Below are positions 51,004 to 64,000 of a stretch of 64,000 bases of DNA, one piece after another. This DNA is from an uncultured Cohaesibacter sp. (lineage in GTDB: Bacteria > Pseudomonadota > Alphaproteobacteria > Rhizobiales > Cohaesibacteraceae), in assembly GCF_963676275.1 (NCBI RefSeq), contig NZ_OY781091.1, forward strand, positions 4,285,001-4,349,000. The letters are read 5' to 3'. A program made the position numbers and the translations under genes. Below the pieces are notes generated by a model that searched no databases, had not been told where the DNA came from, and saw only the letters and a program-made list of their open reading frames with translations. Within the stretch, counting starts at the first letter, position 1, and every line of letters starts with the position of its first letter.

Positions 51004-51771
51004 TTGCTGGAAGCCCTGCCCTTCTTTGCCAACAGTCAACTTGGCGAGCTCACGCTCTGGGGCCTCATCATTGCCAGCTTTTTCACCTCGGCCTTTACCG
51101 CAGCCTTCGGCATTGGCGGCGGTATAGCGCTGCTGGCCATTCTGGGCATGGTCATTCCCGTTACCACGCTCATTCCCCTGCATGGTATGGTGCAGATGGG
51201 GTCAAATGCCGGGCGAGCCTGGCATCTGCGCCCCCATATCAACTGGCGTCTGATCAGGCTTTTCCTGCTCGGAGCCATAATCGGAACCATGATCGGCTCC
51301 CAGATTGTCGTCGCCCTGCCCGATGCCTTGCTCAAGATCATTCTGGCCCTGTTCGTGCTGGCCATCACATGGCTTCCCACCCCGCGCCTGATTGCCAGCG
51401 GCAACGGTTTTCTGGGCATTGGCGCTGTGATTGCCTCGATCATCGGCATGTTTGTCGGGGCCACCGGGCCGCTGATAGCCGCCTTGATCTCGGGCAGAAT
51501 TGGTGAGCGTCAGGGGGTCGTCGCCACCCATGCGACAGCCATGACCCTGTCGCATGGCCTCAAGATCATCGCCTTCGGCTTTATCGGCTTTGTCTATACC
51601 GACTGGCTGGGCCTCATCTGTGCCATGATCCTTTCGGGATATCTAGGCACCCTCACCGGCGCCAGACTGCTCCATGTCATGGACGAGATCCTGTTTCGCA
51701 AGATATTCAGGGTGATCATCACAGCGCTGGCTCTATTGATGCTGTTTGGCGGGCTCAACAGCCTCATTTGA
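51004..51771 (+). CDS. TauE/SafE-family sulfite/anion exporter-like permease
   Basis: A 255-residue membrane protein with about eight hydrophobic segments in two similar halves. Each half has the family's glycine-rich loop: FGIGGGIALLAILG in the first and IIGMFVGATGPLIA in the second. The TTG start at 51004 is supported by AAGAGA upstream; there is no earlier ATG in the frame. Members export sulfite, sulfoacetate or other organosulfonates, but assignment within the family is weak. The 3' end overlaps the convergent ABC ATPase gene by 39 bases. Confidence 0.9.
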   Translation: MLEALPFFANSQLGELTLWGLIIASFFTSAFTAAFGIGGGIALLAILGMVIPVTTLIPLHGMVQMGSNAGRAWHLRPHINWRLIRLFLLGAIIGTMIGSQIVVALPDALLKIILALFVLAITWLPTPRLIASGNGFLGIGAVIASIIGMFVGATGPLIAALISGRIGERQGVVATHATAMTLSHGLKIIAFGFIGFVYTDWLGLICAMILSGYLGTLTGARLLHVMDEILFRKIFRVIITALALLMLFGGLNSLI

Positions 51772-52482
51772 CGCAGTCACGAGCGCCTGCTCTAACCGGG
51801 CGACGAATGCGGAGCGCGCCTCTTGGCCCGCCTCCTCTTCAGCCCTATCGAAACTGGCCATGATGCGAGCCGGAGAGGAAGACAACACCATTGTCCTGTC
51901 CGCCAGAATTGCCGCATCGCGCGCATCATGGGTGACCATCAGAATGCCCATTCCCCTTGTTCTGACCCGCGCCTCAAGCAGCGTCAGCATCTGCCCCACC
52001 AAAGCATGATCAAGGGCATGGAAGGGCTCATCCAGCAGCAGCAATTCCGGCTCGCCCACCAGCGCGCGGGCCAGAGAAACCCTCTGGCGCATGCCACCGG
52101 ACAATTGATGGGGGAATTGCTGATGACAGTCTTGCGGCAGCCCCACCGCCGCCAGCATCGCCAGCGCCTTTTCCTCTCTCGCCCGCCGAGACATTTCCTG
52201 CCCCTTCAGCGCGAAGGCGACATTATCCCGCGCGTTACGCCATGGCAGCAGCAGCGGATCCTGAAACATCGCCGCGACCCGGCCTGTATGGCGAACGACC
52301 GCGCCGCAGTCCGGCTCAAGCAGCCCCATCGCCAGAGACAGCAAAGTCGTCTTGCCACAGCCTGACGGCCCCATAAGCGCCAATACCTGTTGCCTCTTGC
52401 AGGTGATATCGACAGATGCCAGCACGGCCCTTTCCCCATAGGCGAAATCGACGCCAGCCATTTCGAGCAGCACATCACCCAT
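51733..52482 (-). CDS. NitT/TauT-type ABC transporter ATP-binding protein
   Basis: A 249-residue ABC ATPase from ATG 52482. Walker A is GPSGCGKT (38-45), the Q loop is in MFQDPLLLPW, the signature is LSGGMRQR (127-134), and Walker B is LLLLDEPFHALD. The QDPLLLPW pattern is typical of the nitrate/sulfonate/taurine importer class. The start overlaps the end of the permease gene by eight bases. It is the last gene of a three-gene importer operon. A longer frame to 52650 is antisense-like low-complexity and is rejected. Confidence 0.95.
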   Translation of the reverse strand: MGDVLLEMAGVDFAYGERAVLASVDITCKRQQVLALMGPSGCGKTTLLSLAMGLLEPDCGAVVRHTGRVAAMFQDPLLLPWRNARDNVAFALKGQEMSRRAREEKALAMLAAVGLPQDCHQQFPHQLSGGMRQRVSLARALVGEPELLLLDEPFHALDHALVGQMLTLLEARVRTRGMGILMVTHDARDAAILADRTMVLSSSPARIMASFDRAEEEAGQEARSAFVARLEQALVTASNEAVEPAKQHQ

Positions 52483-53269
52483 GGCTGTCGCCCTCTTTCT
52501 CACCGCGCCAGACATGCATCCGCTCGCGCACCAGACGCAACAGCAATTGATCCAGCAGCAGCAGGATCGCCACCACCACCAGAACCCAGGCCAGCAATTG
52601 CGCCGTATCCACCCGCGCCCGCGCCGCCGCGATGCCATCCCCGATGCCAACAGATCCGGAAAGCAGTTCCGCCATGATGGAAACCTTCCATGACATGGCC
52701 AGCGTGGTGGCCAGAGCCGGATAGAGATAGGCCAGCATATGCGGGAAATAGATATCCGTTAGCATCGCCATGGGAGGCGTCTTGAAAGCCCGCGCCATCC
52801 GCGCCAGATCATCATCAAGCGAGCGCACCGCCTGCACGGCACCAGCAAAGATCATCGGTGCCGTTGCCACGGACACCGTGAAGACAACCGCCCAGCGGCC
52901 TCCGAACCACAACAGTGCCAGCACCACCCATGCGATGGCCGGAATGCCGATCAGAATGATCGCCAGCGGCTGCAACAGATGCCGAAGATCCTCATACCGT
53001 CCGGCAAGCCCGCCAGCCAGCACGCCAACAACCACACTGATGCACCAGCCTGCCAGCGCATTGAAGGCGGTCGCCTTGAGCGCCGCAGCGACCTCCCCGC
53101 GCCCAATCAGGCTGGCGAGAGCGGCAAGGGTTTCTCCAAGTCCGGGCAGAACCAGCGAACCATAGGCCAGATGGCCAAGCTGCCACAAGGCCAGCAGCAA
53201 GCCGATGCCCACTGCAGAAAGGATGACAGGCCGCAAGATCAAAGGCGCTCTTTGTGGGGTTTGCTTCAC
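52475..53269 (-). CDS. NitT/TauT-type ABC transporter permease
   Basis: A 264-residue inner-membrane permease with six hydrophobic segments. The cytoplasmic EAA-like loop appears as RMARAFKTPPMAMLTDIYFPHMLAYLYPAL, as expected for the BPD_transp_1 fold. It pairs with the ATPase downstream (overlap of eight bases) and the binding protein upstream (three bases apart), so the operon is complete: binding protein, permease, ATPase. The substrate is unknown. Family members carry nitrate, cyanate, sulfonates or pyrimidine precursors. Confidence 0.93.
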   Translation of the reverse strand: MKQTPQRAPLILRPVILSAVGIGLLLALWQLGHLAYGSLVLPGLGETLAALASLIGRGEVAAALKATAFNALAGWCISVVVGVLAGGLAGRYEDLRHLLQPLAIILIGIPAIAWVVLALLWFGGRWAVVFTVSVATAPMIFAGAVQAVRSLDDDLARMARAFKTPPMAMLTDIYFPHMLAYLYPALATTLAMSWKVSIMAELLSGSVGIGDGIAAARARVDTAQLLAWVLVVVAILLLLDQLLLRLVRERMHVWRGEKEGDSHG

Positions 53270-53272
53270 CTC

Positions 53273-54304
53273 TCACCCCCAATAGAATTCCGCGGCCGGT
53301 TTGCCTCCCCCCACGATGCCCGGATCAAGGCTCATGAGATGGTCGAAATAGAGCTCTATGTCAGCACGCGCCTCCTTGGCGCTTTGCACATCCAGATGCA
53401 CGAAAGGCAGCGAAGCGGCGATCACCGGCGCTGGCAACGGCAGGCTTTGCGCAGCCAGTGCCCCCGCCTCCTGCCAATGGTCTCTGGTCCATTGCCCTGC
53501 CTTGACGCAAGCCTCGTGAACCGCCCTCACTATCTCGGGCTTTTCCTCAAGAAAGGCCGGATTGACCGCAAGTCCGACCTGTGGAATGCGGGGACCTCGA
53601 CCGGTATGCCTGCCATAAACCTCGGTGATATCAATGGACCGGTAAAGCGGCAGTCCGGCCTTTTTTGCCCGGAACAGCGCCGCCGTTGAGGCCGGTTCAT
53701 GCAAAATCGCCACATCGCCCCGCCCGGCCAGATAAAGCGGCACCGCCTCGCCCGGAGAGCCGACATAATCAAGGCGCACATCCTTTTCCGGATCCAGCCC
53801 CGACCATTTCAGCACCAGACGAAAAAGCAGATCCGGCGCTTCATTCTTGTTCGACAGCAACACATGCTTGCCTGCCAGATCCTCGATTCTTTCTATCCCC
53901 TCCTCGCGGGCCATCACATAGAGCACGCCCCAGGTCACCACATTGACCATCACCGTGCCCGCCCCGCGATTGAAGAAATTGGCCGCTGCATAGCTCGAGG
54001 TGGCAAACAGCTTGAAATCACCCGATGCGATGCCCGCCCGCATCTGGTCGGTGCTTTTCCAGACATCAAAGCGCGTCCCCGGCGCAAGCGCTTCCAGATC
54101 ACCGGACGCCACCGCGCGGGCAAAAATGGCCGACGGAGAGGCCGGAATTCCCCATAATGTCAAAGCCTCCGCCTCGGCCCTTGCCGAAAGCGTGCCCCCT
54201 AGCAAACCGAACGGGCTCAGAGATGCAGCCGCAACAGCCCCCAGCCCGGCGCCCCATTTGAGCATATTGCGACGATCGAGCCGTGACTGTGATGAAAAAG
54301 ACAT
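53273..54304 (-). CDS. NitT/TauT-type ABC substrate-binding protein with Tat-like signal
   Basis: A 343-residue periplasmic binding protein. The N-terminus has a twin-arginine signal, DRRNMLKWGAG, followed by an Ala/Gly-rich hydrophobic stretch and a cleavage site near SARAEA. Residues 46-330 form a type 2 binding fold of the NMT1/SsuA class (GIPASPSAIFARAVASGD, YAAANFFNRGAG, LAGRGDVAILHEPAS). It is the first gene of the importer. It is divergent from the [FeFe]-hydrogenase operon, with 550 bases between. No residue reveals the ligand. Confidence 0.9.
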   Translation of the reverse strand: MSFSSQSRLDRRNMLKWGAGLGAVAAASLSPFGLLGGTLSARAEAEALTLWGIPASPSAIFARAVASGDLEALAPGTRFDVWKSTDQMRAGIASGDFKLFATSSYAAANFFNRGAGTVMVNVVTWGVLYVMAREEGIERIEDLAGKHVLLSNKNEAPDLLFRLVLKWSGLDPEKDVRLDYVGSPGEAVPLYLAGRGDVAILHEPASTAALFRAKKAGLPLYRSIDITEVYGRHTGRGPRIPQVGLAVNPAFLEEKPEIVRAVHEACVKAGQWTRDHWQEAGALAAQSLPLPAPVIAASLPFVHLDVQSAKEARADIELYFDHLMSLDPGIVGGGKPAAEFYWG

Positions 54305-54417: not shown

Positions 54418-54669
54418 TATTCAACAACTCAAATGAACAATAAGACTAAAGTATTGGCGCATGTAAATATTACCAAAGTAACCAGCCGCCTCATCAAGGT
54501 AACGGCACCCCATTTCAGCTTGGAATAACTCCTGACTTTGCCTTAAGCCATTTAAGTTTCTTCAGCTTTTCAAAAACGCAGAAATATACACCGCCAAAAG
54601 CCGCTAAAAATTCGGAAGTTGAATTAATTTGCCGCCCTCGGACATCCCCCCGCTCTCCGTTTAGCGGTT

Positions 54670-54683
54670 TGATTTACCTCAAG
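54670..54683 (+). promoter_or_regulatory. FNR/FixK-type binding site of the hydrogenase operon
   Basis: TTGAT-TTAC-CTCAA matches TTGAT-N4-ATCAA at nine of ten conserved positions. It is centred at 54676.5. A weak -10 (CATATC, 54708-54713) places transcription initiation near 54720, about 43 bases downstream, a class II FNR arrangement. It is 174 bases before the flavoprotein start codon. Confidence 0.7.
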
Positions 54684-54764: not shown

Positions 54765-54893
54765 GTGTCAGCTTCGGGACATTCTGAATCCAGCAGCCCG
54801 CATCCTGATACGGCTCCTTCAAACCAATTTGATATTATCAAGCGACGGGGGTCACTGTGGCACAAGTGGTGTATGGCGTTTGGGATGGAGTAG
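54765..54893 (+). CDS. Possible small leader protein of the hydrogenase operon (42 residues)
   Basis: A GTG at 54765 preceded by AAGGAAGG at four bases opens a 42-codon frame ending inside the next gene, with a 37-base overlap. The product is hydrophilic, rich in Ser and Pro at the N-terminus and basic with KRRGSLWHKW at the C-terminus. No homology is recognised. The strong ribosome-binding site and the overlap suggest translational coupling to the flavoprotein, but the frame could be accidental. Confidence 0.3.
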   Translation: MSASGHSESSSPHPDTAPSNQFDIIKRRGSLWHKWCMAFGME

Positions 54894-56854
54894 TCCATGA
54901 TGCAGAGCGGAATCTGCCTGACAAGGACACTCCTCTGGCAGCGCTGAGAAATTTCGACGAGTTTGACGAAGGCAATGCGGTTCGCGCCTTCTTCGCGGAC
55001 AGGGGCTTTTTTGTCTTCGATGAAACCGTCAGTCTGGTCGATGGACTTTTCCATTACATGAGCAAGGCGGCTGAGCAGTCCTGCGGGGCCTGCACCCCAT
55101 GCCGCATGGGTACCGTTCTGATACGGGACGCACTGGACAAGATGCGCCGCGGCCTTGATACGCCTCTCGATTTCGATGACATCGAGCTGTTGGGCGAGCA
55201 GATGAAGGAAACCTCCCTTTGCGGATTGGGGCAAACCTGCTGCGTCGCGCTGCTGGAGGTCATCAGGCATTTTCGCGCCCGGATCGAGAAAGAAGTGGCA
55301 AACCATCTGCCCATCCGCGCCCAGCATGGCATGGCCTATATGACGGCCCCCTGCATCGAAGCCTGCCCCTCCAAGGTCAATGTGCCACGCTATATCGACT
55401 ATATTCGTGATGGCAAACCGGAGAATTCCCTCGGCGTCCTGTTGCAGAAATATCCCATGGCCGCCACATGCGGCCGCGTCTGCGTGCGCTATTGCGAACA
55501 GGCCTGTCGGCGCAAATTCGTTGACGAGGCGGTGGGCATCAAGACCCTCAAGCGCTTCGTTGCCGACCAGCAGAAAGGCTCGCACGCCCTCAAATTCACC
55601 CGCGAAATGATCCAGAAGCCGCTGGCAGACGGCATGAAGGTCGCCGTCATCGGCGCGGGCCCGGCAGGCATTTCCTGCGCCTATCACCTGCTGCTGCATG
55701 GTTATCATGTCGATGTCTTTGAAAAGCAGGACAAGGCAGGCGGCATGGCCCAGATCGGCATCCCGAACTATCGCCTGCCCAAGGATACGCTCGCCATGGA
55801 AACCGACATCATCGTCGATCTGGGCGGTCGCTTCCTGTTTGGCCAGCAACTGGGGACCGACTTCACCATCGACGATCTGTTCCAGCGCGGCTACAAGGCC
55901 ATTTTCCTCGGCCTTGGCTGTCAGGAAGGCACCATGCTGGGCCTGACAGACGAAGAGAAGGTCCGGGAGGGCTATTTCACCGGCATCGACTTCCTGCTCA
56001 AGGTGCATGACCATGTCGACGGTATCGACACCTTCCAGCTCAAGGGCGATGTGGTTGTCGTCGGCGGAGGCAATGTCGCCATGGACTGCGTCCGGTCCGC
56101 CGTGCGGCTCGGCGCGAAAAATGCCCATCTCGTCTATCGCCGCACCCGCGATGCAATGCCAGCCGATATCGAGGAAGTGGAAGAGGCCGAGAAGGAAGAT
56201 ATCGACTTCCACACACTCTGCACCCCCACCCGCATCCTGTCCGAAAATGGCAGGATCACCGGCATAGAGCTTGTCGAGATGGAGGAAACAGAACCGGACG
56301 AAAGCGGCCGTCGCAATGTCCGCCCAATTCCCGGCACAGAACATGTCATGCCCTGCTCAACGGTCATCGCCGCCATTGGTCAGCAGGTGGAAAGCCAGGA
56401 GATCATCGCCGGCGAGGGCATCGACTTCAACAAATGGAAATGCGTGGAGGCGGACAAGTCCCTGACCACCTCGCGGCCCGGCGTTTTCGCCGGAGGTGAC
56501 TGCGTCACCGGCCCTTCAACCCTCATCTATGCCATGTCCGCAGGGCTCAAGGCTGCGCGCAGCATTGATGACTGGATCCAGTTCGGCACGCCGCGCTTCT
56601 TCAAGCGCTCCCGCATGCGCGAGTTGATCAACCAGAATGCCTTTCTGGCCAATGACGCGGTCGAAACGCCCGTGCGCAACGGCTATCGCGTTCACAATCC
56701 GGCGCTTGATCCGGAACTGCGCAAGAAGATGTTCGGCGAGGTGGAACAGACCATCAGTCTGTCAGACGCCTACAAGGAGGCACAACGCTGCATGCGCTGC
56801 TATCGCCTCTATTCCGTGATCACCAAGCATTCCATCCCCGAAGGAGCGGCCTGA
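54857..56854 (+). CDS. NAD(P)H-dependent flavoprotein: NuoF-type 4Fe-4S domain fused to GltD-like oxidoreductase (SfrB-like), hydrogenase partner
   Basis: A 665-residue protein with GTG start and GGGGG just upstream. Residues 60-135 resemble the C-terminal iron-sulfur domain of NuoF: SCGACTPCRMG (C76, C79, C82) and C122 in SLCGLG. From about 160 on it matches the glutamate-synthase small-subunit fold, with cysteines C166, C170, C205, C209, C213 and C217, FAD-binding IGAGPAG (266-271) and NAD(P)-binding VGGGNVAMD plus YRRTRDAMPA, whose arginines suggest NADPH. The complete NuoF flavin domain is absent. This architecture is that of SfrB, a known NADPH-oxidising module. It is three bases upstream of the hydrogenase and probably its electron partner. 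Confidence 0.93.
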   Translation: MAQVVYGVWDGVVHDAERNLPDKDTPLAALRNFDEFDEGNAVRAFFADRGFFVFDETVSLVDGLFHYMSKAAEQSCGACTPCRMGTVLIRDALDKMRRGLDTPLDFDDIELLGEQMKETSLCGLGQTCCVALLEVIRHFRARIEKEVANHLPIRAQHGMAYMTAPCIEACPSKVNVPRYIDYIRDGKPENSLGVLLQKYPMAATCGRVCVRYCEQACRRKFVDEAVGIKTLKRFVADQQKGSHALKFTREMIQKPLADGMKVAVIGAGPAGISCAYHLLLHGYHVDVFEKQDKAGGMAQIGIPNYRLPKDTLAMETDIIVDLGGRFLFGQQLGTDFTIDDLFQRGYKAIFLGLGCQEGTMLGLTDEEKVREGYFTGIDFLLKVHDHVDGIDTFQLKGDVVVVGGGNVAMDCVRSAVRLGAKNAHLVYRRTRDAMPADIEEVEEAEKEDIDFHTLCTPTRILSENGRITGIELVEMEETEPDESGRRNVRPIPGTEHVMPCSTVIAAIGQQVESQEIIAGEGIDFNKWKCVEADKSLTTSRPGVFAGGDCVTGPSTLIYAMSAGLKAARSIDDWIQFGTPRFFKRSRMRELINQNAFLANDAVETPVRNGYRVHNPALDPELRKKMFGEVEQTISLSDAYKEAQRCMRCYRLYSVITKHSIPEGAA

Positions 56855-56857
56855 GCC

Positions 56858-58717
56858 ATGTGTACCACCGAGCCTATCAGCCATGCCGGGCGCAACGCAG
56901 CCGAGGCAACCATCAAGCTGCAGATCAACAACAAGCAATGCATGGCCTTTACCAACGAGACGATCCTGTCCTGCGCCCGTCGCCACGATATCTATATCCC
57001 GACCCTGTGCGAACTGGATGACATTGATCATACTCCGGGCACATGCCGCGTCTGCGTCGTCGAGATCACCCATTCGGGCCATCACGGCGCCCAGATCGTC
57101 ACCTCCTGCAACACGCCGGTCCGCGAAGGCATGACCGTCCAGACCCGCAGCCAGAAGGCTCGCGACATGCAGCGGCTTCAGGTCGAACTGCTGATGGCCG
57201 ACCATCTGCAGGATTGCGCCACCTGCATTCGCCATGGCAATTGCGAATTGCAGGATGTCGCCCAATATGTCGGGCTCAAGGAAAACCGCTTCTTTGATCG
57301 GCAATTGGCCGAAAGCCGCCCGCTGGATGAAGCATCCACATCGATGATCCGCGACATGCGCCGCTGCATCCGCTGCCAGCGCTGCGTTGCCATCTGTCGC
57401 TATCATCAGGGCATCGACGCCCTTGTCATCGAAGGCACCGGCAATGACCGGGTTGTCGCCCTGCGCGACGCCGGTGATCCGGCAAGCAATATCTGCGTTT
57501 CCTGCGGCCAGTGCGTTCTGGTCTGCCCCACCGGAGCCTTGGGAGAGCGCGACGAGACAGACCGCGCCCTTGACTATATCTGCGATCCGGAGATTACCAC
57601 CGTGGTCCAGTTCGCCCCGGCGGTCAGGGTTGCCTTTGGCGAGGAATTCGGCATGCCCGCTGGCACCAATGTCGAGGGGCATGTGATCGCGGCCTGTCGC
57701 AAGATCGGGGTGGATATCGTGCTCGACACCAATTTTGCCGCCGACGTGGTCATCATGGAAGAGGGTACCGAATTGCTCGGACGCCTGAAGGAAGGGCGCA
57801 AACCGACCTTCACCTCCTGCTGCCCGGCATGGATCAATTTTGCCGAGACCCATTATCCCGATATCCTTCCGCTGCTCTCGTCAACCAAATCGCCGCAACA
57901 GGTGCTCTCGACCATTGCCAAGAGCTATCTGCCGGAAAAACAGGATATCGCGGCGGACAAGATCCGCGTCATTTCCATCATGCCCTGCATCGCCAAGAAG
58001 GACGAGGCCGCCCGCCCCCAGCTGGGCTCTCTGGGCAATCAGGATACGGATGTGGTTCTGACCACCCGCGAATTTGCCCGCCTCTTGCGGCGCGAGGGCA
58101 TCGATCTTCAAACCATCAAGCCATCCAGCTTCGACAATCCCTACATGAGCGAATATTCCGGCGCCGGAGCCATTTTCGGCACCACCGGCGGCGTGATGGA
58201 AGCCGCAGTCCGCACCATCTATTCGGTGGTCAATGGCAAGGAACTGGACAAGGTGGAACTGAGCCAGTTGCGCGGCTTCGAGGGCATTCGCGAGGCAACG
58301 GTTGATCTGGGTGGCCCGATCGGTGAGGTCAAGGTGGCCATGGTGCATGGCCTTGGTGACACCCGCAAACTGGTGGACATGGTCCGCTCCGGTCAGGCCG
58401 ATTATGATTTCATCGAAGTGATGGCCTGCCCCGGCGGATGCGTTGATGGCGGCGGCTCCCTGCGCTCGAAAAAGGCCTATCTGCCTCTCGCCATGGCCCG
58501 GCGCGAGACGATCTATAATGTCGACCGCAAGAAAAATGTGCGCCAGTCACACAAGAATGAGCAGGTTCAGGCGCTCTATCGGGATTTTCTCGATGCGCCC
58601 AACTCGGAGAAGGCCCATCACCTGCTGCATACCCATTATGAAGATCGCCGCAAGGAGCTTCAGCACACGGTCAAGGAAATCTGGGACAATCTGTCCATGA
58701 GTTCCGTCCTCTACTGA
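56858..58717 (+). CDS. hydA: [FeFe]-hydrogenase, CpI-like multi-cluster catalytic subunit
   Basis: A 619-residue [FeFe]-hydrogenase. N-terminal [2Fe-2S] ligands C51, C63, C66, C84; histidine-ligated cluster H116, C120, C123, C129; two [4Fe-4S] motifs C170/C173/C176/C180 and C213/C216/C219/C223. H-cluster motifs: L1 TSCCPAW (C321, C322), L2 MPCIAKK (C377, K380), L3 MACPGGC (C524, C528). The proton route of CpI is kept: C321, E302, S341 and E305. L3 continues GGGSLRSKK where most have GGGQP. Overall like the clostridial M3 type. It is soluble, with no signal or Tat motif. Maturation genes hydE, hydF and hydG are not in this window. A terminator follows. Confidence 0.97.
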   Translation: MCTTEPISHAGRNAAEATIKLQINNKQCMAFTNETILSCARRHDIYIPTLCELDDIDHTPGTCRVCVVEITHSGHHGAQIVTSCNTPVREGMTVQTRSQKARDMQRLQVELLMADHLQDCATCIRHGNCELQDVAQYVGLKENRFFDRQLAESRPLDEASTSMIRDMRRCIRCQRCVAICRYHQGIDALVIEGTGNDRVVALRDAGDPASNICVSCGQCVLVCPTGALGERDETDRALDYICDPEITTVVQFAPAVRVAFGEEFGMPAGTNVEGHVIAACRKIGVDIVLDTNFAADVVIMEEGTELLGRLKEGRKPTFTSCCPAWINFAETHYPDILPLLSSTKSPQQVLSTIAKSYLPEKQDIAADKIRVISIMPCIAKKDEAARPQLGSLGNQDTDVVLTTREFARLLRREGIDLQTIKPSSFDNPYMSEYSGAGAIFGTTGGVMEAAVRTIYSVVNGKELDKVELSQLRGFEGIREATVDLGGPIGEVKVAMVHGLGDTRKLVDMVRSGQADYDFIEVMACPGGCVDGGGSLRSKKAYLPLAMARRETIYNVDRKKNVRQSHKNEQVQALYRDFLDAPNSEKAHHLLHTHYEDRRKELQHTVKEIWDNLSMSSVLY

Positions 58718-58772: not shown

Positions 58773-58802
58773 AAACGCCTCGGGGAAATCCCCGGGGCGT
58801 TT
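58773..58802. terminator. Terminator between hydrogenase and signalling genes
   Basis: AAACGCCTCGGGG / CCCCGGGGCGTTT form a 13-bp stem with one G-T pair and loop AAAT, followed by TTCATTTT. It lies between the converging hydrogenase and receiver-domain genes and may act in both directions. Confidence 0.85.
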
Positions 58803-58875: not shown

Positions 58876-60054
58876 TCAATTCTGAAGATCGTAATTGAGG
58901 GGCACCTGACAGGAGATCTCGAGATTGTGCCCCGAATAGCCGACCGTCCAGTCGCCATTGAGAAGCTGCAAGATATGCTCGGCCACCAGCATGCTCCCTG
59001 CCCGTTCCGCACCGAACAGATAGGCCAGACTGATTGTTCCTGACAAATCGAACTTGCGAACATCGCTATCCTGCTCTTCTGTCGCGCCGAATTCCGATAT
59101 GAATATCTCCAGAAATTCCGGGCCCAACTCGTAGCTGACGGCCACATTGGCATTGTCTCCGGAATGGCGCATCGCACCACGCAACATCACAATCAGCAAT
59201 TCCCTGAGCAATCTCTCATCGCTCAGAATGATCGAATCCGCCACATGCTCGCAAAAGCTCAGAGACTTGCCGAACTGTTCGGCCTCATAGCGGCAATCCT
59301 CCACCACCTGCGCCAAGAGCACGCTGACATCAAACGGCCTGAGCTTGACCGCATCATCTTTTTTCAATGTCGCAAGCCCTGCCCTGACAGAGGATACCTC
59401 ATTGCGCAAGGAAGCGATCTGCTCAAGCGCATCACCAATCAGCGCCTCGGTCTCTTCGCTTCGCCCCGCCTTCAGCGCATCCAGAGCCAGAACGGCAAAG
59501 CCGTGCGATTGATCCAATCCGCCATTGAGATGCTTGAGCCATCCAGAAATCTGATCGGCATCAAGCTGCTTCTGATGATGTTCTGATCGTGATTTGCTCG
59601 CGATTTGCGCGATATTGCGCAGCATGCCTTCAAGCATCTTGGCCGAAAGCTCCTGCTTGGCCAGAAACAGATCGGCCCCGGCCTTCAGGCTGGCATCCTG
59701 AAACTGATCATCGTCCAGCGAAGACATAACGACGATTGTCCCGCCATTGCCACCGCTCTTTCGCAGCGACGAGACGAGAGAAACCGACGAATCCTCCCCC
59801 ATCCAGTAATCAAACAGATAAAGATCGAAGCTCTTTGCAGCGCAAAGGGACTCCGCTTGCTTGAGCGAGCTGGCAATCTCGACATCAAACTGAAACCCGT
59901 CCATTTGCTGCAAGAGCCAGCGCACATAACGCCTGTCAATGGGATCATCATCCAGCAGCAGGCAGGAAAGATGAACCTCCTGCCCTACGGATCGAGACAT
60001 CCGCTTCAGCTCATTGGCCATCCCTTCGGCTTGATTAATCCAGACAGAACACAT
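58876..60054 (-). CDS. Receiver domain fused to a degenerate histidine-kinase-like ATPase domain
   Basis: A 392-residue cytoplasmic protein. The receiver domain at about 28-145 begins SCLLLDDDPIDRRYVRWLL with the acidic pair and has the phospho-acceptor aspartate in DLYLFDYWMG. A helical region follows and then an ATPase-like fold. The position of the N box reads LLRELLIVMLRGAMRHS, where glycine replaces the Mg-binding Asn, and no clear G1 box DxGxG is present. It therefore looks unable to bind ATP normally and may act as a receiver-coupled scaffold or phosphatase. It is encoded 58 bases after the second kinase-like gene and convergent with the hydrogenase gene. Confidence 0.85.
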   Translation of the reverse strand: MCSVWINQAEGMANELKRMSRSVGQEVHLSCLLLDDDPIDRRYVRWLLQQMDGFQFDVEIASSLKQAESLCAAKSFDLYLFDYWMGEDSSVSLVSSLRKSGGNGGTIVVMSSLDDDQFQDASLKAGADLFLAKQELSAKMLEGMLRNIAQIASKSRSEHHQKQLDADQISGWLKHLNGGLDQSHGFAVLALDALKAGRSEETEALIGDALEQIASLRNEVSSVRAGLATLKKDDAVKLRPFDVSVLLAQVVEDCRYEAEQFGKSLSFCEHVADSIILSDERLLRELLIVMLRGAMRHSGDNANVAVSYELGPEFLEIFISEFGATEEQDSDVRKFDLSGTISLAYLFGAERAGSMLVAEHILQLLNGDWTVGYSGHNLEISCQVPLNYDLQN

Positions 60055-60112
60055 CTGAAAGCCCCCGTGAATCAGAATATCGTCACGAAAAGGATAGTTT
60101 AAAAATCAAAAA

Positions 60113-60808
60113 TCACAAACATATATCAACAACAATATGATCAGTTACATTTTTCCCAAATATTACACTGACCACAAGGCGGTCACATATCGCATTACAT
60201 TGGTGCAACAACAATAAATCAGAGATATTATCGGAATTATACTGTTCAAACTCAGACAAAAAGCTTCCATCCTGAAAATCAGCAACATCAGATGCTTCTT
60301 TCGTCACCAAACGAAAAATCGGATGGGCTTCCTCCTTGGCCAAATAGCTCACCTCAACCCGCCCTCCAGCGAGCAAGGACAGAGGCTTCAGTGAAAAAAG
60401 TTGCTGAACAAGCTGACCGAAAAAAGCGGGATCCGTCTTTACAATAACCGGCTCTTCCATGTCGGACAAAACGGGTTCAAATTGCAGGCCTTCCATTTCG
60501 GCCAACACCAGCGCGCTAAGATCAACAGGCTGGATGTCGAGCGGCTTGCAGAGCGCATCGGAATAGGCTCGCAGGGATTGGCTCACGTCACCAAGATATT
60601 TGGCTTTTTCCTGAACGAGCCCGAGCATGAAGAGAGCGTCTTGATCAAGACTGTCCCGATTCTCGGCAACAAACAGCTCAAGCAGCTGCGCAATCTGCCG
60701 GATCGGAGCCTTGACATCATGCGCCACCCTGCGCGAGATCTCATAGGGAGACGAAGCCGATCCATCTCTGGTAAAATTGACTGGCTTGCTTGGCTTTTGC
60801 TTGCTCAT
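60113..60808 (-). CDS. HisKA-type histidine phosphotransfer/kinase-like protein with degenerate ATPase domain
   Basis: A 231-residue protein. Residues 25-85 form a dimerisation helix pair with the H box VAHDVKAPIR, as in histidine kinases. The following domain is too small for HATPase, and the N-box region reads DPAFFGQLVQQLFSLKPLSL without the Asn. No G boxes are seen. Together this suggests a histidine phosphotransfer or scaffolding role, similar in principle to ChpT. It lies between the receiver protein and a small gene on the same strand, and faces the CheB-CheR gene. The ATG at 60808 has no rival. Confidence 0.8.
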   Translation of the reverse strand: MSKQKPSKPVNFTRDGSASSPYEISRRVAHDVKAPIRQIAQLLELFVAENRDSLDQDALFMLGLVQEKAKYLGDVSQSLRAYSDALCKPLDIQPVDLSALVLAEMEGLQFEPVLSDMEEPVIVKTDPAFFGQLVQQLFSLKPLSLLAGGRVEVSYLAKEEAHPIFRLVTKEASDVADFQDGSFLSEFEQYNSDNISDLLLLHQCNAICDRLVVSVIFGKNVTDHIVVDICL

Positions 60809-60932
60809 GGCCCCTCAATATCATTATCGACAGGCAAACCTGTCGGTCACTGCGCCAGCTTATCGAAAGCGGAACAGCTGTTTCCACGGCGAGAAAAAGG
60901 ATGAGCAGAAATATCAAAAGAGAATAACATAT

Positions 60933-61148
60933 TCACTTTGTAGTGCAGATATTTCTCAAAGAAGCAGAATGCGCACAAACACGCCGGGAAATATCCCGCA
61001 AAGACCGACTGGCCTCCAGCAAGGTCTGTGAGCGCAAAATATAATCATTGCTCTGCGTCTGCGCACAAAGCTCTATGCTTCTCGAAAGAGACTGCGCGCT
61101 CAATTTCCATTGATCAAGCGCGAAAAGAATTTGATCTTCTTTTGTCAT
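60933..61148 (-). CDS. Small helical protein in the signalling cluster
   Basis: A 71-residue hydrophilic protein from ATG 61148 (TTG 61169 is in frame). It is predicted helical, rich in Ser, Leu, Arg and Gln, with two cysteines and no domain I recognise. There is no strong ribosome-binding site. Its position 124 bases upstream of the kinase-like gene, on the same strand, suggests a shared transcript. It may be a partner in phosphorelay or an accidental frame. Confidence 0.45.
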   Translation of the reverse strand: MTKEDQILFALDQWKLSAQSLSRSIELCAQTQSNDYILRSQTLLEASRSLRDISRRVCAHSASLRNICTTK

Positions 61149-61390
61149 CACTCTGTCACTTTTGCCCAAAAATCAGAAAAACCACATTTTCATGCGATCA
61201 CTCTATTTATATTATGGTTAATTAGGTGTTAATGTTAAATACAAGCTCTAGACGCAACAATATAAGATAATTTTTTTTCTTTTAAAGAGAGACAAACAAC
61301 AAGCTATAATCAAATTCTAGTCAGAAACGTCAATAACAGGATCACCCTACAGCTAAGCAATATATTTCATTCCTTGGGGGAGGATTGTAA

Positions 61391-64000
61391 ATGAGTAAAG
61401 ACACTGAATCTTCAACAGCTTCTACCGAGGAAAAGAAGACCAGCGGGAAAAAGAGAGCCAGGAAACAACCGGACGAGAAACCACTAGACCAAGAACAACC
61501 ATCGCCCGAAGCGAACAAGAATATTCAGCCGGAAGATCTCGATGATCAGGCCGTTTCCGAGAATGAAGACAAGCCAACGCGAATCGTTGGCATCGGTGCT
61601 TCGGCTGGTGGACTGGAGCCGATCGAGCAGTTTTTTGATGCCATGCCCGCCAATCCCGGCATGGCCTTTGTCATCATCCAGCATCTTTCCCCCAATTTCC
61701 AATCCATGATGGATCAGTTGATTGCGCGCCACACCCACATGCGCATTGTGCATGCTGAAGATCAGATGGAAATCGAGCCCAATGTCATCTATCTCAATCC
61801 CCCCCGGACAGAACTGACCCTCAAGAATGGCAAGCTGGCAGCAACAACATATCCTGACAATGACATGCTCAGCCTGCCCATCGATGCCTTTTTCACCTCT
61901 CTGGCGAAAGAAGAGGACGAACTCGCCATCGGCATCGTTCTTTCAGGCACCGGTTCAGACGGGACAAAAGGCTGCCAGCAAATTGTCCAGCATGGAGGCG
62001 TGGTGATCGCGCAAGAGCCATCCACGGCAAAATTCGATTCCATGCCCCGCAAGGTGATCGACACCATCACCACCGCGCACGCCGCGGAAGTGAGCGACAT
62101 GCCGGAAATCCTCGAGGCCATCATCAAAGGAACGGAACTGCCGAATCTGGAACCGGAGACGTCATTCGAAGACGATCCGGAAACCAACATCCTGACCCTC
62201 CTGCAAAAATCCTACGGCACCGACTTCACCTATTACAAGAATGCGACGATCCATCGCCGTATCCAGCGACGGGCCTTGCTCAAACGTCACCCCGGCCTTG
62301 ATTTTTACTATAAATGCCTGCTTTTCGACAAAAAGGAGATGGATACGCTCTATTGCGACCTGCTGATTGGCGTCACCCAGTTTTTCAGGGACAAGGAAGC
62401 GTTCGAAGTCCTCAAAACAAAAGTGCTGCCGGAACTGGTTGCGAAAATGACGCCCGAACGCCAGATCCGGCTCTGGGTGCCCGGCTGCGCCACCGGCGAA
62501 GAGCCCTATTCCATCGCCATTCTGATCAGCGAAATTGCCAAGCGCAACGGCCTTGCCCTTAATCTGAAAATCTTTGCAACCGACATCCATTTCCGCTCCC
62601 TAGAGATCGCCGCTGCGGGGAGTTACGACGCCGAAAGCGTAACGCATATCCCCGAGCCCCTCTTGACTGAATATTTCGAAGTCGTGAATAATCGCTATCA
62701 GGTCAAGAAAAGTCTCAGAAGGCTGGTTGTCTTCTCAACCCAAAATCTACTCAAGGACCCTCCCTTTACCAAGATCGACTGCATTTCCTGCCGCAACCTT
62801 ATGATCTATTTTAACGAACCGGCGCAGCGCAAGGTTCTGTCCCTGTTCCATTTCTCGCTCAAGAAGGATGGTTTCCTGTTTCTTGGCTCCAGCGAAACGG
62901 TGGGCAATCTCGACAGGGAATTCACCTCCATCGACAAGAGATGGCGGATTTTCCAGAAAATGAAAAACAGCCAGTTACACAGTTCCGCCTTCCTGATGCC
63001 AACCTCTTCGCGCTTGAGAAACGACAGCGAGGAAGAATTTTCCTTACGTGAGACGCGATCCCACAATCTGGCCGCCGCCAAGAAGGAAAGCCTCACCCGT
63101 CAGGCCCTGTATGGAGCCTATGACTGGCTGCTGGAGCATTACGCCCCCACCGGCCTTCTCATCAACGAGATGGGCGAATTGCTGCATGTCTTCGGAAATG
63201 CAGATCGCTTCCTGCAAGTGCGCAACGGTCTTTTCAGCAACCGCATAGTCGACATGGTGCACAAGGATCTCAAGCTCGTCATCACCTCCGGCATCGAACG
63301 GGCTTTGGCAATTGGCAACGATTCCGAGTTCGAACGCACGGTTGAAATAGAGGATCTGGACAAGAACAGCATCAGGCTGACCTTAACGGTCACCAGAGTG
63401 CTGAATATCGAGACCCATAACATCTTCCTGCTGATCACTCTGGCAGAGAAAAAGGAAAGCTATTCGGAACGGTCCATCAACAGTGAAACACCCCCCATTG
63501 TCGAAAATAGAGAGATCTACACCAGCAGGATCACCGAACTGGAGCATGAGCTTCGCTCGACGGGAGAAAGCCTGCAAACAACCATCGAGGAACTGGAGAC
63601 CAGCAACGAAGAGCTGCAAGCGACGAATGAAGAACTGACTGCCTCCAACGAGGAACTCCAGAGCACCAATGAAGAACTCCATTCGGTCAATGAAGAGCTT
63701 TATACCGTCAGTGCCGAGCATCAGCGCAAGATTGTTGAACTGACGGAAATGACCGACGATATGGAAAATCTGCTGCGCAGCACGCAGATTGGCACCATAT
63801 TTCTGGACGAAGAAGCCAAGATCCGACGCTTCACGCCAGCATCAACCAAAGCCTTCAACCTGGTACCCCATGATGTCGGCCGACCGATAAGCCACATCAC
63901 CTGCCGTTTTGACAATGAAGGCCTGCCCGAAGAGACCTTGCAAACGATCAGGACCGGCATTCCCCGCTCAAGAGAAGTCGAATGCGACGGAGTGATCTAT
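61391..64000 (+). CDS. CheB-CheR fusion with coiled coil and PAS domain (3' end cut by window)
   Basis: The frame from ATG 61391 remains open at the right edge (870 codons). After a 60-residue charged leader comes a CheB methylesterase domain with GIGASAGG (S71), VIIQHLSP (H98) and GTGSDGTKG (D190). A CheR methyltransferase follows at about 260-540, with the SAM-binding [12 protein letters not shown] near 364 and a helical N-terminal subdomain. Then comes a linker domain, an EEL-rich heptad coiled coil ([12 protein letters not shown] and relatives) at about 720-780, and the start of a PAS domain. Such proteins usually end in a kinase or more PAS domains outside chemotaxis operons. It is divergent from the three small signalling genes. 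Confidence 0.93.

Follow-up and report, generated by a model that had tools for sequence, protein, structure and literature searches.

The question raised by the locus described here is how a catalytic subunit of an [FeFe]-hydrogenase can keep a complete active site in a lineage whose genomes contain no detectable genes for the maturases HydE, HydF and HydG (HydEFG). The locus lies in a 64,000-nucleotide stretch of the genome of an uncultured Cohaesibacter sp. (contig NZ_OY781091.1, positions 4,285,001 to 4,349,000; hereafter the window, to which all coordinates refer), and its core is a pair of genes termed FP and HYD:

54857..56854, plus strand: FP, flavoprotein of 665 amino acids with a NuoF C-terminal 4Fe-4S domain and a GltD-like FAD/NADP module (Pfam, NCBIfam, PDB, alignment)
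56858..58717, plus strand: HYD, catalytic subunit of a group A [FeFe]-hydrogenase, 619 amino acids, with NuoG-like N-terminal clusters (Pfam, NCBIfam, PDB, site checks)

An original prediction, made from the letters of the DNA, had placed the two open reading frames at these coordinates, three bases apart, and both were found there. It had described them as a soluble NADPH-linked hydrogenase of two subunits; the two-gene unit, the group A subunit and the distinction from trimeric HydABC were borne out, whereas a working hydrogenase in the usual sense was not, HydE, HydF and HydG not being found. Our preferred reading, to which we give a probability of roughly 45 per cent, is that the pair forms an NADP(H)-linked two-subunit [FeFe]-hydrogenase (group A, A2-like) with a complete H-cluster site, in a lineage that lives without HydEFG and would obtain the [2Fe] unit by another route. 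What makes the locus of interest is the absence of maturases beside a frozen active site, together with a dedicated importer.

HYD matched PF02906 with 299.5 bits and PF02256 with 78.2 bits, and it carries NuoG-type 2Fe-2S and 4Fe-4S domains. Its score against TIGR02512 (518.2 bits, curated cut-off 405.95) assigns it to group A, while with 723.6 bits it stays under the cut-off of 765 of NF040763, the NCBIfam model of the NADH-dependent hydrogenase A6, and is not a member of that family. FP contains PF10589 (the NuoF 4Fe-4S domain, residues 66-145), PF14691 and PF07992; the FMN/NADH-binding part of NuoF is absent from it, and the listed NuoF-type PDB matches span only their C-terminal part. The motifs GxGNVAMD and YRRT, which we take to be an NADP-type nucleotide site, are present in all 12 aligned FPs, in agreement with the predicted GltD-type partner, and by this motif FP classes as a putative NADP(H)-type GltD flavoprotein. 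The GTG start of FP at 54857 is supported because all 13 aligned loci have a start codon at the same place (GTG in five Cohaesibacter, ATG in the other eight). The ratio of nonsynonymous to synonymous substitution (dN/dS) of HYD had a median of 0.042 in nine Cohaesibacter; medians by set were 0.036-0.101 in maturase-less genomes (with one genome of unknown maturase status in the Aliiruegeria set), and two maturase-positive pairs gave 0.085-0.086. Because of the domain scores and this purifying selection, chance is excluded for the identification of FP and HYD.

FP is 96% and 94% identical to its counterparts in two named Cohaesibacter. Across 398 sampled genomes of the phylum, it was detected in one, the window's own (strict E <= 1e-120). 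Relatives of HYD were matched in nine plasmid records, none of them from alphaproteobacteria. The GC content of the cassette (0.59-0.61) is higher than that of the window (2-kb mean 0.55, standard deviation 0.031).

Alignment to CpI confirmed that the H-cluster and proton-path residues of HYD are intact. The residues at CpI places C299, C300, C355, C499, C503, E279, E282, R286, S319, K358, M353 and M497 are all kept, with the functional roles that we presume for them in CpI. At 40 sites, HYD differs from CpI in two, 232 (S to A) and 268 (I to T), and so do both HydA1 sequences. The four H-cluster cysteines were kept in all 29 maturase-less rows (27 distinct), and in 26 sequences of the maturase-less crown clade described below the 40 H-cluster and proton-path sites were all invariant, against a background of 201 invariant columns among 354 of the H domain (57%; hypergeometric 2.3e-11); the list consists of what we take to be conserved hydrogenase (CpI) positions, and the p-value says only that these sites are not drifting. 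Maturase-positive relatives vary at least as much at the listed sites (H at 286, I at 296). The alignment omitted 21 of 66 loci, 17 as duplicate or partial (L001, L024, L027, L030, L034-L042, L047, L068-L070) and four as a second hydrogenase type (L014, L016, L020, L021), and the pair alignment includes 7 of the 18 maturase-positive genomes. Two of the 17, L034 (in G393) and L069 (in G324, partial), are in fact not duplicates; in these two, and likewise in L177 and L178, a single one of the 40 sites departs from HYD (296 or 286).

The original prediction had allowed that a genome free of maturation genes would count against it, and this is what was found. In the window's genome (a single contig of 5.03 Mb, 99.99% complete), the HydG, HydE and HydF models gave no match over cut-off, whereas each of them did so in one of 14 control genomes (for HydF, Thermotoga maritima). 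Below cut-off there were one HydG and three HydE matches, falling in CofH, CofG and HutW, which were rejected as hidden maturases since each is over the cut-off of its own specific model. The 11 HydF matches were confined to model positions 5-170 of 392. CofG, CofH and CofD lie together (L129, 7156-10767; contig positions ~2,033,156-2,036,767 of G000:C1), followed by open reading frames that by eye resemble the remaining F420 synthesis genes and an F420-dependent oxidoreductase.

Among 397 sampled genomes of the order, PF02906 was found in 34; HydG was over cut-off in 18 of these and HydF in the same 18, and neither in 16. Because of this division, an assembly gap is an unlikely cause of the missing maturases. 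The 16 comprise 13 genomes of the window's genus, its own included, and G060, G097 and G313. FP relatives were collected from 16 loci (Cohaesibacter, Rhodobium, Rhodovulum, Tropicimonas, Aliiruegeria, Rhodopseudomonas, Oryzibacter and one metagenome-assembled genome). HydF was detected in one of 15 named relatives' genomes searched, that of Oryzibacter; of the 33 genomes examined for HydE, three contain it (G282, G310 and Oryzibacter), each together with HydF. After removal of named genomes duplicating genomes of the order sample (identical HypF coordinates: G397/G149, G398/G330, G401/G060), the pair is left in 27 distinct genomes in which no maturase was detected; all three were looked for in 16 of these, and HydF and HydE in the other 11. 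Six of the genomes without maturases are single contigs (G000, G175, G197, G288, G302, G316). A plasmid collection (72,556 records) yielded HydF in six records, none alphaproteobacterial, in a search that may omit records near the window's genome. Nine of the 27, the window's own genome among them, lack HypF (E <= 1e-30), and an Fe(CN)/CO unit derived from HypF was therefore rejected as a universal substitute. Of the carriers with species names, Cohaesibacter haloalkalitolerans and C. marisflavi possess HypF and Tropicimonas isoalkanivorans does not. Other PF02906 proteins were encountered as well: a second [FeFe]-hydrogenase of G313, distinct from HYD (40% identity), is encoded on a contig that ends ~1.6 kb past the match (G313:C18, L111), and divergent proteins of 107.9 bits (L125, G302:C1:3445451) and 88.6 bits (G203:C1:522517) are each encoded in a genome together with a normal hydrogenase.

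A phylogeny of the catalytic subunit, which the original prediction had proposed as a check, a position inside a well-characterised family with another electron donor counting against it, placed the 35 pair sequences in a clade of their own (support 100) on a long stem (1.22), in a tree whose characterised enzymes are only three (CpI and two HydA1). Nested in it is a crown of 27 tips, 26 maturase-less and one of unknown status (L048), with support 100 and a stem of 0.216. Maturase-positive members (Oryzibacter and genomes of g99, g100 and f28) fall outside the crown, their branching being in part weakly supported (68, 30, 99, 98); G313, likewise maturase-less, branches separately and more deeply and may reflect an assembly gap. 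In G165, G266, G282 and G310, where HydG and HydF are present, the pair contains the only PF02906 protein found, so the ancestral chemistry of the pair was most likely that of a HydEFG-made cluster, and the site has not changed from that state. HYD lies next to HydG in G165 and G266. The simplest history is loss of HydEFG inside a clade that was once served by it.

The stem of the crown is also marked in HYD itself. At ten columns the crown has a fixed residue (in at least 93% of its 29 rows, of which two are duplicates and one has unknown maturase status) that eight deeper members lack, and three of the ten are new cysteines, C28 (29/29 rows), C242 (28/29) and C280 (28/29), all outside the 40 active-site and proton-path sites. 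The probability of three cysteines in ten columns at the cysteine share of HYD is 0.006, a rough figure as the columns were inspected first. FP has 14 such crown-fixed columns, none of them a cysteine (23 and 7 sequences). One crown-specific column lies at CpI 509, directly after the last H-cluster motif, with S in 28/28 crown rows and T or H in the seven maturase-positive ones.

The cross-genus neighbour of the pair, upstream of it in the window and absent from the original prediction, is a Tat-type importer of the ATP-binding cassette (ABC) family:

53273..54304, minus strand: substrate-binding protein (SBP), NitT/TauT-like, with a twin-arginine-type leader (PF10518 match just under cut-off)
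52475..53269, minus strand: importer ABC permease (PF00528, synteny)
51733..52650, minus strand: importer ABC ATPase (PF00005, synteny); the open reading frame overlaps the permease, so translation probably begins further downstream

In the window and at 15 of the 16 FP-relative loci, the three genes are neighbours of the pair, in varying orientation. Genomes of the order sample with an SBP of at least 53% identity number 24; every one of them belongs to the 34 that have a hydrogenase, and the other 363 contain no such SBP, the next best match being at 41%. In 22 of the 24 the SBP gene lies on the hydrogenase contig within ~5 kb, and in G346 and G393 it is on a separate small contig. The cassette of importer and pair appears to have been transferred as a unit, without HydEFG, as is suggested by the agreement of the SBP and HYD trees, which both put Rhodopseudomonas within Rhodovulum (88/74 and 100/90). 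Against solved structures, the SBP gave only weak matches, to nitrate- and sulphonate-binding proteins. Paralogues of the SBP (~31-41% identity) recur with ABC genes and an NnrS-type cluster (L161, L162, L163, L169, L171, L172, L173, L175, L176): of 16 regions fetched, a paralogue was called in 12, nine of them near a cluster with one member identified as NnrS (PF05940). TonB-dependent receptors, DUF2478 or ApbE occur in some of these regions, one receptor being closest to a copper-receptor model, below cut-off. Such neighbourhoods perhaps hint at a metal or nitrogen-oxide theme for the importer family, with no ligand named.

From these data we infer the cluster assignments, the electron path and its direction, the H2 chemistry and a [2Fe] source other than HydEFG (in 9 of the 27 genomes also without HypF). 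Electrons would pass between NADPH/NADP+ and the FAD in the GltD part of FP, and from there to the two 4Fe-4S clusters of this part, to the NuoF-type 4Fe-4S cluster of FP (C76, C79, C82, C122), and through the NuoG-type chain of HYD to the H-cluster, where H2 would be linked with NADP(H). The clade would formerly have been served by HydEFG, and one derived lineage, which includes the window's genome, would later have gone without.

Among solved structures, the nearest relatives of HYD are the HydA1 subunits of Thermoanaerobacter kivui (8a6t, 504 bits) and Acetobacterium woodii (7q4v, 498 bits), from bifurcating or NADH-dependent HydABC enzymes (HydDB A3, NCBIfam A6), which share its NuoG-like N-terminal clusters. 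In contrast to HydABC, the pair of the window has no NuoF FMN/NADH domain and no NuoE-type subunit, and a GltD-type partner takes their place; genes for neither adjoin the pair, which places it outside group A3. The GltD domain of FP resembles those of NfnA- and StnABC-type proteins (9n5u and 8oh5, the latter of which we take to be StnABC), but these are parts of other complexes; the original prediction had called FP SfrB-like, a putative likeness. According to PMC5037454, group A2 of HydDB is 'glutamate synthase-linked (putative)', with its role undetermined, and likewise has a GltD-type protein encoded beside the catalytic subunit; the HydDB rule given there looks downstream and excludes NuoF, whereas FP lies upstream and carries the NuoF domain PF10589. 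A term search of a review on multimeric [FeFe]-hydrogenases (PMC6288185) did not find 'glutamate synthase', 'SfrB' or 'alphaproteobacteria'. Hydrogenase genes without HydEFG have precedents in Rhodospirillum rubrum and in protists. In PMC4967309, earlier work is said to have held the R. rubrum-type enzymes inactive or otherwise used, their maturases being missing, and maturases are reported in Pleomorphomonas and others; PMC9161772 describes hydrogenase-bearing eukaryotes that lack maturases and refers to claims of maturase-free activity. What sets the present case apart is that it spans many bacterial genera in one clade, has sister lineages that possess maturases and comes with a linked importer. 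In the open-access literature, judged by title and the start of the abstract and among the matches listed, nothing was found on a maturase-less clade of Cohaesibacter, Rhodovulum and Rhodopseudomonas or on its importer; most subscription papers are outside this scope.

A more detailed version of the preferred reading can be put forward only tentatively: the lineage may have dispensed with HydEFG (and some hosts also with HypF) in favour of a fourth diiron route, after a single transition marked by the three new cysteines, and the importer may feed this route. Several observations weigh against a hydrogenase that is matured by another route. To our knowledge, HydEFG is the only means by which organisms make the CO/CN/azadithiolate diiron unit. 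No candidate alternative maturase was found beside the pair, the importer being the only neighbour conserved across genera. This importer is present in 12 of the 18 maturase-positive genomes and missing from the other six, and it is missing from 4 of the 27 maturase-less ones (G084, G197, G355, G313), so the importer as a simple replacement of HydEFG is not supported. The site list originally held 43 positions, of which 386, 390 and 414 were dropped, and 414 varies within the crown (G in 18/28 rows, A in 10/28). Finally, the HydF cluster is termed essential by in vitro work (PMC12752695).

The strongest alternative, which we regard as quite possible though short of even odds, is that the lineage has left H2 altogether: HYD would hold only the [4Fe-4S] part of the cluster, or another metal, and act as an NADPH-dependent reductase of some other compound, which may be the substrate of the importer. 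It would account for the lack of maturases in 27 distinct genomes and for close importer orthologues being confined to hydrogenase genomes (24/34 against 0/363). The shared placement of Rhodopseudomonas within Rhodovulum, the gain of C28, C242 and C280 on the crown stem and the crown-specific S at CpI 509, next to the last H-cluster motif, are in line with it, as is the earlier view of the R. rubrum enzymes as inactive or differently employed (PMC4967309). However, the crown keeps the listed proton-path and diiron-pocket residues without variation, and maturase-positive relatives, which keep them too, vary at least as much; the importer also occurs in the 12 maturase-positive genomes. The frozen pocket favours a hydrogenase matured without HydEFG, and the missing known ligand route favours an enzyme without the diiron unit, as far as gene and protein comparisons can tell. 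The NADPH-linked two-subunit hydrogenase of the original prediction is supported by genes, domains and motifs, but its maturation by the known HydEFG is not, and this leaves an unknown route or a protein that is not a usual hydrogenase.

That maturases are present and were missed, either because they are too divergent or because they lie on replicons outside the assemblies, is improbable. Several assemblies are drafts, and in G313 hyd genes may sit in the gap after the second-hydrogenase contig, but six maturase-less genomes are single contigs, and the same models detect HydG and HydF in 18 genomes of the order. The HydF matches in the window's genome cover less than half of the model, and the plasmid records with HydF (near relatives of the window's genome possibly omitted) include none from alphaproteobacteria. 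A functionless, decaying relic, for which the absence of maturases could be cited, is very improbable, as it is contradicted by the dN/dS of the maturase-less HYDs (0.036-0.101 by set), by the lack of internal stops among the PF02906 matches listed and by a tree placement that suggests transfer with the importer.

Two further features flank the pair:

54669..54682, plus strand: FNR/FixK-like site TTGATTTACCTCAA, one mismatch, within a block conserved in five Cohaesibacter
58773..58802, plus strand: terminator-like hairpin of 13 pairs, 3' of HYD, which would close the two-gene unit

The FNR/FixK-like site is more degenerate in the other four Cohaesibacter, and it is weak, as six such matches occur in the window against 3.3 expected. 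Upstream of the pair, no known RNA family was found at gathering threshold, and a sub-threshold match to a human long non-coding RNA family was taken as chance. Gene clusters recurring in at least three loci (mechanical gene caller) were the pair, the importer, a short open reading frame (four loci, possibly antisense) and an RND-type one, which stands beside the pair in three loci of what we take to be Pleomorphomonadaceae type. The remainder of the window after HYD (58876-64000) contains open reading frames named by eye as response-regulator-like, histidine-kinase-like and large CheB/CheR-like; they are syntenic in three relatives and lie outside the cassette elsewhere.

HydEFG is taken as indispensable for [FeFe]-hydrogenases, and protists that lack it are a standing puzzle. 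In a culturable alphaproteobacterial clade whose active site is frozen and whose genomes show no detectable maturases, the question can be put to a direct test. If the H-cluster can be assembled by another route, this would be useful for biotechnology; otherwise, the hydrogenase fold would have a conserved non-hydrogenase use, which sequence classifiers would take for H2 metabolism.

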